A DNA stretch of 64,000 nucleotides. Origin: Hoeflea sp. IMCC20628 (GTDB lineage Bacteria; Pseudomonadota; Alphaproteobacteria; Rhizobiales; Rhizobiaceae). The notes below the pieces were generated by a model. That model saw only the letters and a program-made list of their open reading frames with translations. It had not been told where the DNA came from and did no database searches. Of the stretch, positions 3,059-26,691 are shown piece after piece; position 1 is the stretch's first letter; every line of letters begins with the position of its first letter. The translations under genes were made by a program, and so were the position numbers. The stretch covers positions 4,289,662-4,353,661 of the forward strand of contig NZ_CP011479.1 of assembly GCF_001011155.1 (NCBI RefSeq), read 5' to 3'.

Positions 3059-4927
3059 ATGACCATCCGCATTGCCGCATCCATGCTGGCCGCATCCGTT
3101 CTCGCCCCGATTCTGGCCCCCACTCTGGCATTGGCCGGAGTAATCTTCAGTGCAACGGTTGCATCGGCTGAGGAACCGGTCTGGCAGCATGCCACGGCAA
3201 TGATTGACGAGCCGAAATACGCGCAAGGCTTTGACCGCTTCGACTACGTCAATCCGGATGCGCCGAAGGGCGGCACGCTGAAACTGGCGGAGGAAGGCAC
3301 CTTCGACAGCTTCAACCCGACCCTGGCCAAGGGTGAATTGGTGACCGGGCTCAGCCTGGTCTTCGACACCTTGATGAAATCGTCGGAAGACGAGGTGTCT
3401 TCGTCCTACGGGCTGCTGGCCGAAAGCACCTCCTTTCCCGACGATATTTCAAAAGTCACGTTCCGGCTTCGGGCGGATGCCAAATGGGCAGACGGCAAAC
3501 CGGTGACCGCCGACGATGTGGTCTTCAGCTTCGACAAGGCCAAGGAACTCAATCCGCTGCAGGCCAATTACTACGCCCATGTCGTCTCGGCCGAGAAGAC
3601 TGCAGAGCGGGAAGTGACCTTTCTGTTTGACGAGAACAACAACCGCGAACTGCCGCAAATCCTTGGGCAGATCCTGGTTATCCCAAAACACTGGTGGGAG
3701 GGGACAGGCGCCGACGGCAGCGCGCGCGACATCAGCCGCACCACGCTGGAGCCGGTAATGGGGTCAGGCCCCTACCGGATCGCTGCCTTCAAACCCGGGT
3801 CAACCATCCGCTACGAGTTGCGCGACGACTACTGGGGCAAGGATCTCAACGTCAATGTCGGGCAGCACAATTTCGGTGCGATCGAATATATCTACTTCTC
3901 CGACGCCAATGTCGAATTCGAGGCTTTCCGCGCCGGTACGGTGGATTTCCGGCAGGAGAATTCAGCCAGCAAATGGGCTACTGCCTATGATTTTCCCGGT
4001 GTCCAGAATGGTGACATCAAGCGCGAGGAAATAGAGAACCCGCTGCGCGCCGTCGGCATCATGCAGGCGATGGTACCCAACATGCGTCGCGACAAGTTCA
4101 AGGACATACGGGTGCGCAGGGCGCTCAACTTCGCCTTCGATTTCGAAGACCTGAACCACAATCTGGCCTTTGACGCGCTGGCGCGGGTCGACAGTTACTT
4201 CTGGGGCACGGAGTTGGCTTCCACAGGCTTGCCGGAAGGCCGCGAGAAGGAGATTCTCGAAGGGCTGAAGGACAAGGTGCCAGCCGAAGTGTTCACCACG
4301 CCCTACACCAATCCGGTGGGCGGCGATCCGACAAAGGCGCGCGCAAATCTGCGCCAGGCGCTGACGCTTTTGCAGGAAGCCGGATATGAGCTGAAGAATG
4401 GCAGGCTTGTCGATGCAAGCACGGGCGAGCCCTTCGAGATTGAAATCCTGCTTTCCAGCCCTTCGCTTGAAAGGTCGGTGCTGCCCTATGTCGCCAGCCT
4501 GAAGAAAATTGGCTTTGATGCGCGGATCCGCACGGTCGACGCCTCACAATATACCAACCGGGTGAGAAGCTTCGACTACGACATGATCTGGAATGTCTGG
4601 GGGCAATCGCTCAATCCGGGCAACGAGCAGGCCGGGTATTGGGGGTCATCTTCGGTGGATCGCGAGGGATCGCGTAACTATGCCGGAATATCCGATCCGG
4701 CAGTCGACGAATTGATCCGGATGGTGATTTTCGCCCAAACCCGCGAGGAAAAGGCGGCGGCTGTAAAAGCACTCGACCGGGTACTGCTGGCACATCATTA
4801 TGTGGTGCCGCTGTTTTACAGCAACGCGGTCAAGGTGGCTTACAGCAAGAACCTCGCCCACCCCGACGAGCTTCCCTATTACGGGCTCGGTTTTCCGGAT
4901 GTGTGGTGGATGAACGAGCCAAATTGA
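3059..4927 (+). CDS. yejA: Oligopeptide ABC transporter substrate-binding protein (YejA type)
   Basis: The product is a family 5 extracellular solute-binding protein of about 622 residues. The ATG at 3059 is chosen because GGAGG sits 10 bases upstream (3044-3048) and because it starts a signal peptide directly. An in-frame ATG at 3029 and a longer upstream extension lack that support. The signal peptide ends near residue 35. The mature start, with GFDRFDYVNPDAPKGGTL, is typical of YejA. It is the first gene of a complete yejABEF set, which imports oligopeptides and, in enterobacteria, the antibiotic microcin C. A stem-loop lies between it and yejB and may let the binding protein be made in excess. 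Confidence 0.92.
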   Translation: MTIRIAASMLAASVLAPILAPTLALAGVIFSATVASAEEPVWQHATAMIDEPKYAQGFDRFDYVNPDAPKGGTLKLAEEGTFDSFNPTLAKGELVTGLSLVFDTLMKSSEDEVSSSYGLLAESTSFPDDISKVTFRLRADAKWADGKPVTADDVVFSFDKAKELNPLQANYYAHVVSAEKTAEREVTFLFDENNNRELPQILGQILVIPKHWWEGTGADGSARDISRTTLEPVMGSGPYRIAAFKPGSTIRYELRDDYWGKDLNVNVGQHNFGAIEYIYFSDANVEFEAFRAGTVDFRQENSASKWATAYDFPGVQNGDIKREEIENPLRAVGIMQAMVPNMRRDKFKDIRVRRALNFAFDFEDLNHNLAFDALARVDSYFWGTELASTGLPEGREKEILEGLKDKVPAEVFTTPYTNPVGGDPTKARANLRQALTLLQEAGYELKNGRLVDASTGEPFEIEILLSSPSLERSVLPYVASLKKIGFDARIRTVDASQYTNRVRSFDYDMIWNVWGQSLNPGNEQAGYWGSSSVDREGSRNYAGISDPAVDELIRMVIFAQTREEKAAAVKALDRVLLAHHYVVPLFYSNAVKVAYSKNLAHPDELPYYGLGFPDVWWMNEPN

Positions 4928-19473: not shown

Positions 19474-21012
19474 TCATTTGTAGATAAAACCGACGGCGCC
19501 GTGGTAGCGGCCTGGCGGCAATTTGGTTTCCATTCGGCCATAAACCCGGTTGACCCGGCCGAGGAAAAAGCCCGCGCCGTCGCCGGCTGCATTGAAATTG
19601 TCATCCGGACGGGCGATCTGGTTGCGAGCAACAGGTTTGACAATGTAGGGCGTGGCTATGATGACCAGCTCGGTCTCGTTGCGGACGAAATCACGGCTGC
19701 GGAAAAGCGTTCCCAAAACCGGAACCTTGGACAATCCCGGATAGCCCGACATCGCCTGGCGAATGTCATCCTTGACCAGACCGGCAAGCACAATTGATCC
19801 ACCGGACGGCAGTTCCACCGAGGTTTCGGCCTCGCGGCGCTTGATTGACAGGCGAGTCAAACCGGAGTTGTTCTGTGCACCCTGAAGCGAGGTCGATCCC
19901 TCGAATGTCGGCTCCGACACTTCGGTGTAGACCTTGAGGGAAATTCGCCCCGGCGACAGCACAACCGGCGTAAAGTTCAACCGGATGCCGTATTCCACTT
20001 CGCGATCGGTATATGTGGCTTTACCGTCGTCGTCGTAGTCAACCGCATCACGGACCTGGAACTCGCCGCCAACATAGAATTTGGCGCTTTCGCCCGAGAT
20101 CGCCGTCAAACTGGGTTCCGCCAGGGTGCGCATGACACCGGCCTGTTCCATTGCGTTGACATAGCTGGATATGGTGCGGCCGCCGACGGTCCCTGCCAGC
20201 GAGGCAAAGTTGAGACCGGTGGTCAGCGATCCCAGGTTGGCGGGGTTGTTATTGTAGAAGGCTCCGTTGCCGCCGGTGATCGACGAATTGAAGCCGAGCT
20301 GCTTGAGCACCTGCCGGCTGACCTCGGCGATGGTCACCTTGAGGGTCACCTGGTCTTCGCCATCGATCTTGAGCAGATTGACAATCTGGGATTTCTGACG
20401 GTCCTCGGCGCTGATGGCGGCGTCGCCGCCCTCGCTGGTCGCAGTTGTCAGACGCGTTGTGGCCTCGCCACCTGTCAGAAAGATTTCTGCCAGCCTTGCT
20501 GCCTGCGCGGCATCCTGCGGGGTGCGAACCGATCCGGTCAGGACAATGTTGTCGGAAATGATTTCGACCGTAATGTCGGAGTCCGGGAGAAAGCGGGCAA
20601 GGTGACCCTGCAGACCTGAGACATCGCGTTCGATTTCAAGATCGATGGCAACGATCTCTTCGCCGTTCGGGCCGAAAATGAAGATGTTGGTCTGGCCAAC
20701 CGTCTTGCCGAACAGATAGAGCCGGCGAGAGGTGCGTGTGACCGCATCAGCAAGGGTCGGATCAGCAACAAGGATATCATGAGCATCGGTCGGAAGATCG
20801 ATGACGATGGCCTTGTTCAGTCCCAGCTTGACCCGTTTGTTGACGCCGGGCCCGGTCTGTTTGATCGTGATGACGCTTTCAGCCGCCTGAGCAGAGGGCA
20901 GGAAACGGCCGCTTGACGGTTCCAGGCCTAAGCCCAGGACCACGGTTGTTCCCACCAGAGCAATGCTGGCGATGGATGACAGGAGCGATTTTGCAATGTG
21001 ACGCACGTTCAT
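19474..21012 (-). CDS. cpaC: Tad pilus secretin CpaC (RcpA)
   Basis: The 512-residue outer-membrane secretin has a signal peptide ending around AQAAES (residue 45). It is followed by a pilus-assembly N-domain (KLGLNKAIVIDLPTDAHDIL), a BON-like ring-forming domain near residues 140-190, and the secretin core from about 230. The core ends with ELPSGGSIVLAGLVKDDIRQ and LGTLFRSRDF, both conserved among secretins. It forms the pore through which the Flp pilus leaves. The stop codon overlaps a possible start of cpaD. Confidence 0.94.
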   Translation of the reverse strand: MNVRHIAKSLLSSIASIALVGTTVVLGLGLEPSSGRFLPSAQAAESVITIKQTGPGVNKRVKLGLNKAIVIDLPTDAHDILVADPTLADAVTRTSRRLYLFGKTVGQTNIFIFGPNGEEIVAIDLEIERDVSGLQGHLARFLPDSDITVEIISDNIVLTGSVRTPQDAAQAARLAEIFLTGGEATTRLTTATSEGGDAAISAEDRQKSQIVNLLKIDGEDQVTLKVTIAEVSRQVLKQLGFNSSITGGNGAFYNNNPANLGSLTTGLNFASLAGTVGGRTISSYVNAMEQAGVMRTLAEPSLTAISGESAKFYVGGEFQVRDAVDYDDDGKATYTDREVEYGIRLNFTPVVLSPGRISLKVYTEVSEPTFEGSTSLQGAQNNSGLTRLSIKRREAETSVELPSGGSIVLAGLVKDDIRQAMSGYPGLSKVPVLGTLFRSRDFVRNETELVIIATPYIVKPVARNQIARPDDNFNAAGDGAGFFLGRVNRVYGRMETKLPPGRYHGAVGFIYK

Positions 21013-22130: not shown

Positions 22131-22646
22131 CTAATGCAGGCGAGCCAGCGCCTGGGTAAAGATTTCGGTGTCAGGAAAAGTGGAGAAGGCTGCCGCGCCA
22201 ATGGCCACGCCATAGGGAATTCCGGCACGCGCCTTGAAAAAATGCATCGGAATCGGGACCGGCGAAATCAGGAGTACATTCTCATTGGCGCGGATCATCA
22301 GCACGATCAGGGCCAGAAAGCCGCCGTAAATGCCAGTGAAGCCAAGAAACGCAACCAGATCAATGTTGAAGCCGTACCAGAGCGCTGCGGCGCTGAGGAT
22401 CTTGGCGTCTCCGCCGCCCATTACATTGAAAGCAAACAAGGCGAAACAACCGGCAAATACCGTTAATGCGGCGGCTAGAGACCAGCCGAATGTGACCAGG
22501 TCCATGCCGCTAAACGGAGCCACCACGAAAAATGACGCCGCCAATACGATTGGGACACGATTGGGGATTTTCATCGTCAGTATGTCAGAGAATGCCGCCA
22601 TGGCCAGGCAAAGCGGAAAAATGACAAATATTGCGGCCTCGACCAT
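22131..22646 (-). CDS. cpaA: Prepilin peptidase CpaA (TadV)
   Basis: This 171-residue integral membrane protein is an A24 aspartic prepilin peptidase. The two catalytic aspartates are in AAFSDILTMKIPN (near residue 21) and MGGGDAKIL (near residue 80), each at the end of a membrane segment. The short length with no N-methylation domain is typical of TadV/CpaA. It should remove the leaders of the two Flp pilins and of the TadE-like pseudopilins. It lies 116 bases after the first pilin gene, beyond a strong terminator, so it needs readthrough or its own promoter. Confidence 0.92.
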   Translation of the reverse strand: MVEAAIFVIFPLCLAMAAFSDILTMKIPNRVPIVLAASFFVVAPFSGMDLVTFGWSLAAALTVFAGCFALFAFNVMGGGDAKILSAAALWYGFNIDLVAFLGFTGIYGGFLALIVLMIRANENVLLISPVPIPMHFFKARAGIPYGVAIGAAAFSTFPDTEIFTQALARLH

Positions 22647-22708: not shown

Positions 22709-22733
22709 AAAAAAACCGCCCCGAAGGGCGGCT
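22709..22733 (-). terminator. Intrinsic terminator after flp pilin gene 1
   Basis: On the minus strand GCCGCCC-TTCG-GGGCGGT forms a very stable tetraloop hairpin followed by seven Ts. It lies 30 bases after the pilin stop codon and separates the abundant pilin message from cpaA. Confidence 0.92.
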
Positions 22734-22762
22734 CTTGAAACGGAAAATCCAGTAGCGCGGGC

Positions 22763-22951
22763 TTACAGGCCCTGTGCGCCCTTGGCCGTATTCATCTTGT
22801 CGGAAAGGCCCTGGAACTGAGCATTGAGTGTGTTGCCCAGTGTGGTGGCGCCGGTGATGAGCGCGACCGAGATAAGCGCAGCAATGAGGCCGTATTCAAT
22901 CGCTGTGGCGCCGGATTCGTCATTGGCGAAACGTTCAAAAAGGTTCTTCAT
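22763..22951 (-). CDS. flp: Flp family type IVb major pilin, copy 1
   Basis: The 62-residue prepilin has a short leader of 14 residues, then the cleavage and assembly segment G|ATAIEYGLIAALISVALI. Glu at mature position 5 and the following Tyr define Flp pilins. Cleavage by CpaA gives a 48-residue pilin. The Shine-Dalgarno site is AAGGAA. The mature region is residue-for-residue identical to copy 2; only leader residues 4, 5, 6, 9 and 10 differ. The hairpin terminator just downstream makes this a monocistronic message. Confidence 0.93.
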   Translation of the reverse strand: MKNLFERFANDESGATAIEYGLIAALISVALITGATTLGNTLNAQFQGLSDKMNTAKGAQGL

Positions 22952-22978
22952 GGGTTTGTTCCTTCATCCACTTGTATA

Positions 22979-22997
22979 TTCAGCACTCCGCCAACTG
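22979..22997 (-). promoter_or_regulatory. Conserved element upstream of flp copy 1
   Basis: The 19 bases TTCAGCACTCCGCCAACTG (plus-strand reading) match the element before pilin copy 2 with one substitution, at exactly the same distance (27 bases) from the start codon. On the coding strand it reads CAGTTGGCGGAGTGCTGAA. The role could be promoter, operator or mRNA leader. Confidence 0.6.
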
Positions 22998-23082
22998 CTT
23001 CGGCTGGTCGGATTTGACGATCATAGGAGCTGAGGTTTTCAAACTGCTTAAAGAACAAGGTGAACAAATACCTACTGGTCAG

Positions 23083-23105
23083 AAAAACCTGTTCTGATGA
23101 ACAGG
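23083..23105 (-). terminator. Second hairpin with T tract between the two pilin genes
   Basis: On the minus strand CCTGTTC-ATCA-GAACAGG, a perfect 7-base-pair stem, runs into TTTTT. It could be a backup terminator for pilin copy 2 or an attenuator in the leader of copy 1. It is also a perfect palindrome that a protein could bind. Confidence 0.55.
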
Positions 23106-23160
23106 ACGATAACAAGCAGCATGGAACCGGAGATACTTTCGACTGGCAGGATAGAAATGC

Positions 23161-23184
23161 AAAAAGCCGCCCCGAGGGGCGGCT
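23161..23184 (-). terminator. Intrinsic terminator after flp pilin gene 2
   Basis: On the minus strand AGCCGCCCC and GGGGCGGCT pair tightly and are followed by TTTTT. It sits 136 bases after the pilin copy 2 stop codon. The stem is closely related to the terminator of copy 1, as expected if the gene and its terminator were duplicated together. Confidence 0.88.
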
Positions 23185-23319
23185 GCTTAAATCGCAAAGG
23201 CTTCAGCGCCGCGCATCAAATCGGATGCTCAAAGGACGCCTTTAGCTCTTGAACCGATGCATGTACGATATCATCCAAATAAACTCATTCGACATCGACA
23301 TGCATCAGGTGAGCCAATT

Positions 23320-23508
23320 TTACAGGCCCTGTGCGCCCTTGGCGGTATTCATCTTGTCGGAAAGACCCTGGAACTGTGCATTGAGCGTGTTGCCGAGGGT
23401 GGTAGCGCCGGTGATGAGGGCGACCGAGATAAGTGCGGCGATCAAGCCATACTCAATTGCGGTGGCGCCGGATTCGTCCTGAACGAAACGATTGATCATG
23501 TTTTTCAT
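23320..23508 (-). CDS. flp: Flp family type IVb major pilin, copy 2
   Basis: The 62-residue prepilin has leader MKNMINRFVQDESG and the same mature 48 residues as copy 1, beginning ATAIEYG. Comparing the two genes by eye over the mature region gives about 17 base differences, all synonymous. The ribosome site AAGGAG is stronger than that of copy 1, so this may be the better translated copy. It is the most upstream minus-strand gene of the pilus cluster and is divergent from the CpaC-like N-domain gene. Confidence 0.93.
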   Translation of the reverse strand: MKNMINRFVQDESGATAIEYGLIAALISVALITGATTLGNTLNAQFQGLSDKMNTAKGAQGL

Positions 23509-23881
23509 GGGATGCTCCTTAGTTCACATAATGGTTTCAGCACTCCGTCAACTGTTACCGTTGATCAGATAGAGGCACCCTACAGACAGGCATTTTCGAT
23601 CTACTTAATAAAGAGAGTTAGCAAAACCTTCCGCGCCGGCAGCTGCAAACTGGCTTAATGGAGTCCGAACGAGCGCTCTCGAAAATCAGCTGTGCGCCGG
23701 CCCTATTATAGAGTGAACCTGAACGACGCCTTGTTTGAAGTATCGGGTCCATGTCAGCGCAAACCACGCTGCCGTTTGAACAGGGCGATGACTGATTTTT
23801 CAAAGATCCGGGCCGCTTTAAGGCTTCGTTCACCAATCCGAGTGATTTTAGGGGCTAGATCCGAAATCCCGAGGAAACGGC
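23509..23881. other. Divergent intergenic region between flp copy 2 and the N-domain gene
   Basis: These 373 bases hold no supported gene. They must contain the promoter of pilin copy 2 on the minus strand and that of the N-domain gene on the plus strand. The only feature I can support is the shared pilin element at 23536-23554. On the plus side CTTTAAGGCTTCGTTCACC resembles a CtrA site with a mismatch, but I do not rely on it. Confidence 0.5.
23536..23554 (-). promoter_or_regulatory. Conserved element upstream of flp copy 2
   Basis: TTCAGCACTCCGTCAACTG (plus-strand reading) differs from the copy 1 element at one base and keeps the same 27-base gap to the start codon. On the coding strand it contains TTGACG, which could serve as a -35 box, but no matching -10 is seen at 16-18 bases in both copies. 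Confidence 0.6.
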
Positions 23882-24295
23882 ATGACCCACTCCCACCCAG
23901 TCCGAAGCCGGTTGATGCATGCCCTATGCGGCATGGCCCTGGTCACGATGTCGACACTTCCGGCACAGGCAACCGATGATGTCATCCGGGTGTTCATGGA
24001 TCATGCGCGGATTCTCAAACTGGACCGCACCATCAGCAAGGTCATTATTGGCAATGCCGCAGTGGCCGATGTTGCCATCTCCGATCCGCAGACCATCGTG
24101 TTGACCGGCAAATCCTATGGCACGACAAATCTTGTCATTCTCGATCAGGCCGGCGATGCGATCGTCGATGAACGCATTCTGGTTTCTGTTGATGAGGCCA
24201 ATACGCTTCGTGTTTTCAAACAGACGTCACGATCGGTGTTTTCCTGCTCGCCATCCTGCGAAGAGCATGTGCCGACGGCGGCAACGAGTCCCTGA
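23882..24295 (+). CDS. Secretin N-domain mini-protein of the tad locus (pilus assembly N-terminal domain)
   Basis: The 137-residue protein has a signal peptide ending near PAQA|TD (residue 31). The mature part is one pilus-assembly N-domain, with LDRTISKVIIGNAAVADVAI and TIVLTGKSYGTTNLVILD. These align with the N-domain of CpaC (VADPTLADA, LFGKTVGQTNIFIF), but there is no BON or secretin domain. The last 25 residues are Cys/Pro/Ser-rich with a CSPSC motif. GAGGAAA precedes the ATG. Similar small proteins occur in rhizobial tad loci; the role, perhaps a periplasmic secretin partner, is inferred from the domain and position. Confidence 0.82.
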   Translation: MTHSHPVRSRLMHALCGMALVTMSTLPAQATDDVIRVFMDHARILKLDRTISKVIIGNAAVADVAISDPQTIVLTGKSYGTTNLVILDQAGDAIVDERILVSVDEANTLRVFKQTSRSVFSCSPSCEEHVPTAATSP

Positions 24296-24428
24296 TCCCT
24301 TGCCCAGCGCAAGTATTGGTTGATGGTTGATTAACCACGCCGGGAGACTTGCCTGCAACCGCGTTACGAATATTCAACTAGTTTGGTCTAGCGTCGTCCC
24401 TTGACACCTAATGTCCGGGAGCATGACG

Positions 24429-25058
24429 ATGAATGTCGATGATCAAGCCAATAAACGGCACACGTCACCACGGCGGATGCGGCGGATTCTTGCCCGGTTG
24501 AACCGATCCCGGGACGGGACGGCTGCAATCGAGTTCGGGCTGCTGGCGTTTCCCTTTTTCCTTTTGATCTTCGCCACCATCGAAGCCTTTATCGCTTTTG
24601 CTGGCGAACAATTGCTCGAAAACGCCGTTGATACGATGGGCCGGCAAATCCGCACGGGCCAGATCACGTTCGACATGGGCCGTGCCACTGATCTGACCGA
24701 AGTTCAGTTCCGCACAAAATTCTGCGGTGAGATCAGCCTGATGATCAAATGTGCTGACCAAGAAGACCCGGACGACAAGAAACTCTATCTCGATGTTCGG
24801 GAGTTTGCGGATTTCTCGGCCATCCCGACCTACATTCCAAAGATGGGCAACGAACGTTACTCGGATCTGGATGACACCGGCTTTGCCTATGATCCTGGTG
24901 GACCGCAAACGATCAATATTGTCCGGGCCTATTACCGTTGGGAAGTCATGACCGACCTTGTCAGGCCCTACATCACCAACATCCGCAAGGATGGTGAAAT
25001 GCCGCACGACTACCTGATGGTGGCAACTGCTGCATTTCGCAACGAGAACTATCCGTGA
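24429..25058 (+). CDS. tadE: TadE-like pseudopilin 1
   Basis: The ATG at 24429 has GGGAG 7 bases upstream; upstream in-frame ATGs at 24411 and 24423 are less well placed. The product is about 209 residues. After a basic N-terminus comes a pilin-like segment GTAAIEFGLLAFPFFLLIF with Glu at the expected position, then a periplasmic domain of about 150 residues. This fits TadE/TadF pseudopilins, which are cut by the CpaA/TadV peptidase and are needed for Flp pilus biogenesis. It is followed by a second TadE-like gene 50 bases later. Confidence 0.88.
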   Translation: MNVDDQANKRHTSPRRMRRILARLNRSRDGTAAIEFGLLAFPFFLLIFATIEAFIAFAGEQLLENAVDTMGRQIRTGQITFDMGRATDLTEVQFRTKFCGEISLMIKCADQEDPDDKKLYLDVREFADFSAIPTYIPKMGNERYSDLDDTGFAYDPGGPQTINIVRAYYRWEVMTDLVRPYITNIRKDGEMPHDYLMVATAAFRNENYP

Positions 25059-25108
25059 ATGGCGACACACGAAATGAAGCCAGGCGGAAATCACAAGGGA
25101 GCACGGCT

Positions 25109-25681
25109 ATGACCGGCATCTTGATTGGACTGCGCGAGACCGCACGGAAGCTGCGCGGCGACCGTGCAGGCGTCGGCGCAGTTGAGTTTGCACTGATCGC
25201 ACCGGTGCTGATTGTCCTCTATATGGGATCGCTGGAAGTGTCTGTCGCCATGTCGGTCAACAAGAAACTGGCGCGCGCTGCAAGCACCGTGGCCGATCTG
25301 GTGACCCAGGACGACAGCATCGACAAGGCTTTTCTCCAGTCCATGCTCAATGTGGCGCAAAGCGTGATGACGCCGTTTCGCGCTGACGGCGTGGCGGTGA
25401 AGATCACCGGAATCTCGATCAACGGGGCAGGTGTCGCGACCACCAAATGGTCATGGCAGGAAGACAACACGCGGCCCTATGTTGTTGGTTCCACCCAAAC
25501 CCTGCCGAATGATCTTGCGATACCGAACACGTTTCTGGTTCGGACTGAAGTCGAGTTTGATCACGATCTGCTGCTGATCATGCCGGGCATACAAGACGTC
25601 GATTTCCGGACGATCCACATGAAGAAAACCTACCATCTCCGCCAGCGTGTCGGCGACGAAGTTTCCTGCGACAACTGCTGA
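25109..25681 (+). CDS. TadE-like pseudopilin 2
   Basis: The ATG at 25109 has GGGAG 7 bases upstream, the same arrangement as the previous gene; a GTG at 25055 overlapping its stop is the alternative. The 190-residue product has a pilin-like segment GVGAVEFALIAPVLIVLYMG near the N-terminus and a periplasmic domain rich in beta-type sequence. It probably acts as TadF/TadG-like minor pseudopilin with its neighbour. No large von Willebrand-type TadG gene is present in the window. Confidence 0.85.
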   Translation: MTGILIGLRETARKLRGDRAGVGAVEFALIAPVLIVLYMGSLEVSVAMSVNKKLARAASTVADLVTQDDSIDKAFLQSMLNVAQSVMTPFRADGVAVKITGISINGAGVATTKWSWQEDNTRPYVVGSTQTLPNDLAIPNTFLVRTEVEFDHDLLLIMPGIQDVDFRTIHMKKTYHLRQRVGDEVSCDNC

Positions 25682-25703: not shown

Positions 25704-25726
25704 ACCGGCGCGGTCAACGCGCCGGT
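25704..25726. terminator. Hairpin between convergent genes
   Basis: A perfect 9-base-pair stem ACCGGCGCG with CGCGCCGGT encloses GTCAA. It overlaps the stop codon of the minus-strand PhnD-like gene and follows the TadE-like gene by 22 bases. There is no long T tract, so it would be a weak or factor-assisted bidirectional terminator. Confidence 0.5.
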
Positions 25727-26691
25727 GGCGTGACGGAACTGTTCAACAGACCTTCCACGAGTCCCCGCACATTGCGGTAATCCTCCGGATCCGGCGTGAC
25801 ATAGCCGCCGCCATAGACCGGCTCGAAAATATCGAGCAGTCCCGGGGCCTTGGACGGCATTTCGTCAAGAAATCTTCCCAGAGCCTCGACCAGATCGTCT
25901 GGCAGTGACCGGTGTGCGGCATGCGGACCATAGGGAATGCGCTGGGACGACCAAAGCACCCGGAGCGGGTCTGCGGCCCCGATGCCGGACCGGTTCCAGC
26001 CACCAAACAAATGCGTCAGATCCGAGCCTGCATCGCCTGGAATATCCGGCAGCCAGGCAAAATATCCGTCAACTTCTCCGGCAAGGTACAGCGCGATCAC
26101 CGCGTTTACGCTGCCGGCGCGGACCAGCTGTGGCGCATCCAGGCTGCCTGCCCGGATTGCCTGTTGCGGAATTTGCCATCCGGAAATCGACTCTTCACTG
26201 GAATAGGCGATCCTGAGCCCTTCCACCGGCCGATTGATGCTGTCACGTGCAACAAGCACCGAGCGAAAGCCGGTTGATCCATCGGCAGCCACCGGGCTTC
26301 GAAACGCCCGGACACAGCTGCAGACTGCATCGGTGGCGGCAAAGGATCTGGCAGAATGGATCGCGTAGCCGACGCGTCCACTGGCCTGCGCGTCAATCAG
26401 GGCCGCGTAACTGGCCATTTTGATGATCTCGACTGGAATGCCCAAAGTGGTCGCGAAAGAATGGCGGACCGCGTCAAGTTTCAGCGGATCTGCGGCTGCA
26501 ACATGGGATTCGACCAGACCAATCCGCAGCACCGGAACGGATTCCCGGTAATCAGCCCGCGCCGCGCCGACCACGCACACAGCCGCTGCCAAACCGGCCC
26601 AGCACAGCAGGCGGGCCGGACGGGCCAATTCGTGTGCTCGTCTGGTGGACAGATGATGGGCAAGTCTGGCGGCTAGCTTGATCGTGATCAT
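25714..26691 (-). CDS. Orphan PhnD-like phosphate/phosphonate-type binding protein
   Basis: The 325-residue protein has a basic N-terminus, a hydrophobic signal segment near residues 27-45 ending ARA|DY, and a type II periplasmic binding fold. VLRIGLVESHVAAADPLKL opens the domain and YSSEESISGWQIPQQAI matches the ligand-phosphate loop (S-x-S-x-SG) of PhnD-type proteins. No permease or ATPase gene is nearby. It borders the tad pilus genes and converges on the second TadE-like gene. It may feed a transporter encoded elsewhere or act as a sensor. The ligand is unknown. Confidence 0.78.
   Translation of the reverse strand: MITIKLAARLAHHLSTRRAHELARPARLLCWAGLAAAVCVVGAARADYRESVPVLRIGLVESHVAAADPLKLDAVRHSFATTLGIPVEIIKMASYAALIDAQASGRVGYAIHSARSFAATDAVCSCVRAFRSPVAADGSTGFRSVLVARDSINRPVEGLRIAYSSEESISGWQIPQQAIRAGSLDAPQLVRAGSVNAVIALYLAGEVDGYFAWLPDIPGDAGSDLTHLFGGWNRSGIGAADPLRVLWSSQRIPYGPHAAHRSLPDDLVEALGRFLDEMPSKAPGLLDIFEPVYGGGYVTPDPEDYRNVRGLVEGLLNSSVTPPAR

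Follow-up and report, generated by a model that had tools for sequence, protein, structure and literature searches.

Mature parts of two tandem Flp pilin genes in Hoeflea sp. IMCC20628 appear to evolve in concert while their upstream regions and leaders keep separate histories

Two tandem flp genes, here called flp A and flp B, are located in a 64,000-nucleotide stretch of the genome of the marine bacterium Hoeflea sp. IMCC20628 (the window, whose coordinates are used throughout) and encode the same mature pilin, a subunit of adhesive pili, behind different leaders. Comparison with related sequences suggests an ancient tandem duplication of a major Tad/Flp pilin gene, after which each copy kept its own upstream region, leader and terminator-like hairpin while the mature part evolved in concert. 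We give this reading a probability of somewhat more than 0.8. It is based on two conflicting histories within one short gene: by upstream region and leader, a copy groups with its counterparts at the same gene position in other species (A with A, B with B), and by mature part it groups with the other copy of its own genome. The positions of all relevant features are listed in Table 1.

Table 1. Features of the flp gene pair and its surroundings (positions in the window)
Feature	Position	Strand	Remarks
flp A	23320-23508	-	62 aa; open reading frame of the initial annotation
flp A upstream region, A-type, TCTGATCAACGG...GTTGACGGAGTGCTGAAACC...AAGGAGCATCCC	23509-23638	-	kept in copy A of L036, L040, L043, L044; in L042; in G007
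flp A leader, 14 codons, MKNMINRFVQDESG	23467-23508	-	sorts by gene position
flp A mature pilin, 48 codons	23323-23466	-	sorts by genome
flp A C-terminal 23 codons, candidate conversion tract	23323-23391	-	4/22 synonymous codons unlike B
Terminator-like hairpin 3' of flp A	23165-23184	-	
flp B	22763-22951	-	62 aa; open reading frame of the initial annotation
flp B upstream region, B-type, ATCCGACCAGCCGAAGC...GGCGGAGTGCTGAA...AAGGAACAAACCC	22952-23081	-	kept in copy B of double-copy species and in 8 single-copy Hoeflea
flp B leader, 14 codons, MKNLFERFANDESG	22910-22951	-	sequence, AU test
flp B mature pilin, 48 codons	22766-22909	-	sequence, Pfam, AU test
flp B C-terminal 23 codons, candidate partner of conversion tract	22766-22834	-	
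Terminator-like hairpin 3' of flp B	22711-22736	-	-18 kcal/mol, z -3.6
cpaA, prepilin peptidase, first gene downstream of flp B	22131-22646	-	Peptidase_A24, PF01478, E 3.8e-15

Both proteins were assigned to the family Flp_Fap (Pfam PF04964; E 4e-21 and 3e-21; 75 and 75.6 bits, gathering threshold 32.2). Each carries a short leader and the GXXXXEY cleavage motif (as defined in PMC10934763), with the cut between DESG and ATAIEYG. Over 44 residues the mature part can be aligned with PDB 8U2B and 8U1K, Tad pilins of the Caulobacter type (E 3e-8 and 1e-7). On the minus strand the gene order is flp A, flp B, cpaA, cpaB, cpaC; the pair thus adjoins the Peptidase_A24 gene encoding CpaA, and cpaB and cpaC have orthologues across Hoeflea. 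Cleavage between G and ATAIEYG and the position beside cpa genes correspond to Tad/Flp major pilins. Caulobacter PilA (8U1K, 8U2B), a pilin of this type (IVb/IVc), has a 14-aa leader and Ala15 as the first mature residue (PMC11067988), and Hoeflea is alike in the 14-residue leader and the short mature pilin. Caulobacter has one pilA, whereas IMCC20628 carries a tandem pair whose mature parts evolve in concert.

Further pilus genes are found nearby and elsewhere. A third Flp_Fap pilin, 48% identical, is encoded at a separate site of the same genome (L115 4001-4177; G000:C1:4823824-4823997). On the opposite strand, a segment that begins upstream of flp A (23882-25681) holds a gene with a pilus-formation N-terminal domain (PF13629) and two genes for TadE-like pseudopilins, and a phosphonate-type periplasmic binding protein (PF12974) is encoded where they border on other genes (25714-26691).

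The two flp genes differ at 28 of 189 nucleotides. Eleven of these differences lie in the leader, where they cause five amino-acid changes (positions 4, 5, 6, 9 and 10, the only ones between the two proteins) and alter one codon silently. The mature part shows 17 nucleotide differences in 16 codons, all of them silent, so that the protein is identical at 48/48 residues; NG86 dS is about 0.6. The initial annotation had reported exactly this, an identical mature pilin with about 17 silent differences and distinct leaders, and it was confirmed. Identity with solely silent change is far beyond chance, yet it is not peculiar to strain IMCC20628, and the equivalent pairs of four other Hoeflea species differ by 1-3 residues. 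The silent differences are distributed unevenly: mature codons 1-25 hold 13 of them and the remaining 23 codons hold 4, a contrast that is borderline when this pair is taken alone (Fisher p=0.04 to 0.06; p=0.039 for nucleotides, p=0.063 for synonymous codons).

For comparison 16 Hoeflea genomes, one per species, were used, the relatives being retrieved with CpaB, which also places the window in Hoeflea. Two similar tandem copies are present in five species (IMCC20628, L036, L040, L043, L044), ten others have one flp copy, and G007 has one copy plus a strongly diverged second gene. This flp-like gene (L113, from G007, 3473-3658) follows copy A, shows an unusual leader and mature start (VLKFFECFAKDKTG/TTAIEYG) and is a diverged or decaying duplicate. 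Hoeflea sp. BRH_c9 (L032), the closest of the named records by CpaB, has no flp on its short contig and was not used. Eight single-copy species have a B-type upstream region; an A-type region is found in L042 and at the first G007 gene, and an intermediate type in H. marina (L045), outermost of the Hoeflea in the tree. Species with two copies occur at scattered places in the cpaABC tree, and those with one keep either A or B. The duplication therefore appears to predate most of the genus, one copy or the other having been lost later. The number of losses is uncertain, as deep nodes of this tree are weak (13-50% support) and cpaC is seemingly recombined.

An old duplication had been proposed before, and the A- and B-type upstream regions common to Hoeflea species bear this out. 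An independent recent duplication in each species would account for mature parts that cluster by genome. It would, however, have duplicated the upstream region as well, and in IMCC20628 the 16 codons that differ silently are more than a recent event would leave. Moreover, upstream types and leaders correspond by position from one species to the next, and species with a single copy have kept either type. On these data the A and B upstream regions are homologous by position between species; recent duplication was therefore rejected and is hardly credible.

CpaC (cpaC, 19474-21012) is itself bimodal in Hoeflea. In five species (L039, L042, L043, L044, L113) it is 71-73% identical to that of IMCC20628, in others 78-89%; CpaB of the same five species stays at 87-96%. 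This suggests that cpaC was replaced or recombined in part of the genus.

The two histories were compared by AU tests on 21 sequences, contrasting an A/B split with pairing of the copies within genomes. With the upstream region, the A/B split did as well as the best tree and pairing within genomes was rejected (p=3e-6), as it was with the leader (p=0.0068). The mature part gave the opposite picture: pairing did no worse than the best tree, and it was the A/B split that was rejected (p=3.8e-6), also when the N-terminal (p=0.0012) or C-terminal portion (p=1e-43) of the mature part was taken alone. Distances among the five double-copy Hoeflea follow the same lines. Upstream, copies within a genome differ by 0.40 compared to 0.22 for A-A and 0.26 for B-B, and in the mature C-terminal part they differ by 0.089 compared to 0.29-0.30 between species. 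The flanks of the homogenised tract, namely the upstream and most 3' flanks, are diverged. Site-by-site likelihoods place the switch of history at leader codon 6 or at coding nucleotides 57-71, with the cleavage site at nucleotides 42/43. The breakpoint is loosely placed because leader codons 11-14 are too conserved for a finer placement, so coincidence of the switch with the cleavage site is suggestive only.

The mature pilin itself consists of two parts with different constancy. Residues 1-25 are identical in all 21 Hoeflea copies except for position 22 (T/S). From residue 26 onward many positions vary within Hoeflea, and length ranges from 43 to 52; the last ~23 residues differ by about 37-38% between species, compared to 0-3 residues between copies within a genome. 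This bears on the view taken in the initial annotation, by which the duplication is old, the subunit cannot change and only silent sites drift, so that purifying selection alone keeps the copies identical. The claim of a constant mature subunit stands for the N-terminal 25 residues, which are near-invariant under strong purifying selection, and in IMCC20628 silent divergence of this part is indeed at the between-species level (12/25 codons, median 0.48). It fails for the C-terminal half, since a segment with 37-38% difference between species cannot be fixed by selection; frequent replacement of mature residues in related genomes had been named as evidence against constancy, and it was found there. 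Silent sites that pair by genome and the rejected A/B split of the mature part also speak against purifying selection alone. As an explanation of the whole pattern it was therefore rejected and is improbable, although it holds for the N-terminal half in IMCC20628.

Gene conversion is indicated because not only residues but also silent sites pair by genome. For this test only codons with the same encoded residue were counted, and all 120 possible A/B pairings were ranked. Within-genome pairing gave the smallest synonymous difference (rank 1/120) for both the N- and C-terminal parts, whereas upstream region (rank 73) and leader (rank 114) showed no within-genome pairing among the 120. In L043 the two copies also agree in the 11 noncoding bases that follow the stop codon. 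Long matching runs, assessed by permutation, agree with conversion too, but this test mixes noncoding and coding sites and carries little weight. The mature part offers only 144 nt for comparison, in five species with two copies.

Within IMCC20628, 12/25 synonymous codons differ in the N-terminal part, which equals the between-species median of 0.48, and 4/22 differ in the C-terminal part, where comparisons with other species are all higher (0.30-0.62; binomial p=0.004). Judged by these values, purifying selection accounts for the identity of the N-terminal half and concerted evolution for that of the C-terminal half, probably through a conversion mainly over the 3' half of the gene. Recent conversion with few silent differences had been named beforehand as a finding that would count against the reading of the initial annotation, and the C-terminal part with its 4 silent differences comes close to it. 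A further explanation is convergent or compensatory selection, in which the same amino-acid changes were selected twice for a matching surface without copying of DNA. A matched surface could matter, since in Caulobacter the C-terminus of the Tad pilin points outward (structure in PMC11067988), but neither the pairing of silent sites by genome nor the post-stop bases shared in L043 would be explained, and we consider it very unlikely as the sole cause. It may act together with conversion; selection for matched subunits after conversion is inseparable from conversion alone.

Concerted evolution of this old gene pair probably proceeds as follows. The tandem copies keep their differing upstream regions, leaders and separate terminator-like hairpins. 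Recurrent conversion over short tracts would transfer changes in the exposed C-terminal half between the copies, and the N-terminal assembly helix would be kept invariant by selection. The latest conversion in IMCC20628 appears to span mainly the C-terminal half. As a result, two genes, each under its own control, probably furnish a single type of filament subunit. It is conceivable, though we put it forward only tentatively, that homogenisation is bounded by the cleavage site through selection for filament uniformity, leaving leader and control regions free to differ. Changes of the exposed C-terminal end, e.g. against pilus-binding phages, might then work only if present in both copies, so that conversions of the mature part would be retained; the leader is discarded.

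Differing leaders had been proposed to tune processing or export, which is compatible with a concerted mature part. The leaders do sort by gene position (AU p=0.0068 against pairing), but leader positions 3-6, 9 and 10 also vary among single-copy orthologues, and leaders of different species differ to the same order (amino-acid difference 0.21-0.26). The differences can thus be explained without a special function, by drift at positions that are under weak constraint and discarded, and the proposal found no support; we think tuning for cleavage or export rates rather unlikely.

The consistent contrast between A and B, as far as sequence comparison goes, is the upstream control region. From the conserved upstream regions and the terminator-like hairpins we infer separate promoters for the two genes. 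A sigma-70 scan returned no promoter for flp A or flp B, and inspection of the flp upstream regions by eye for sigma-54 and CtrA sites led to no claim. A conserved box, GGAGTGCTGA, begins about 38 nt (35-40) 5' of the start codon of both copies and of nearly all Hoeflea flp genes (minus strand, about 23537-23546 and 22980-22989 in the window), and a second conserved block, GCTAACC-N7-TTAAGC, is located farther upstream. In L036 (3955-3957) and L043 (3903-3905) the start codon of copy B is GTG instead of ATG, a possible difference between A and B at the level of translation.

Other tandem flp pairs were compared as well. The Rhizobium group (L055, L081, L104, L117) shows a similar pattern with a weaker synonymous test (ranks 2-3 of 24), and in its Rhizobiaceae pair G119/L117 the two prepilins are identical, all differences between the genes being silent, in 20 codons. 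The pairs of Ensifer (L072, L073, L083, L088) are likewise tandem and occupy the same place in the cpa cluster, but unlike in Hoeflea their mature parts differ by 7-12 residues without homogenisation within genomes, and the second gene follows about 30 nt after the first without an upstream region of its own. Since the Rhizobium group shows the pattern and Ensifer does not, concerted evolution of tandem flp genes is, by these sequences, recurrent but not universal.

Concerted evolution by gene conversion is known for bacterial duplicates such as tufA/tufB and flagellin pairs. As in those cases, the flp paralogues of Hoeflea are closer within a genome than to their orthologues and the flanks keep their own history; the difference is that homogenisation is restricted almost entirely to the portion of the protein retained in the filament. 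For Flp pilins, the literature searched yielded no description of concerted evolution. Two Flp pilins in one genome also occur in Agrobacterium fabrum, whose ctpA and pilA are functionally interchangeable according to work cited in PMC10934763; the flp genes of Bdellovibrio are not interchangeable (PMC5430801).

The flp pair is a compact natural example of two histories united in a single short pair of genes, with a switch near the cut point of the protein. An exact match between copies can arise without a frozen subunit, and dN/dS of paralogues should not be read as purifying selection unless relatives are included. The two genes most likely contribute to the same filament, each under its own control, as has been suggested for genomes with interchangeable Flp pilins such as that of A. 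fabrum; we infer that both are expressed and co-assemble. The prediction for Hoeflea is that both flp genes would feed the same filament under different control.
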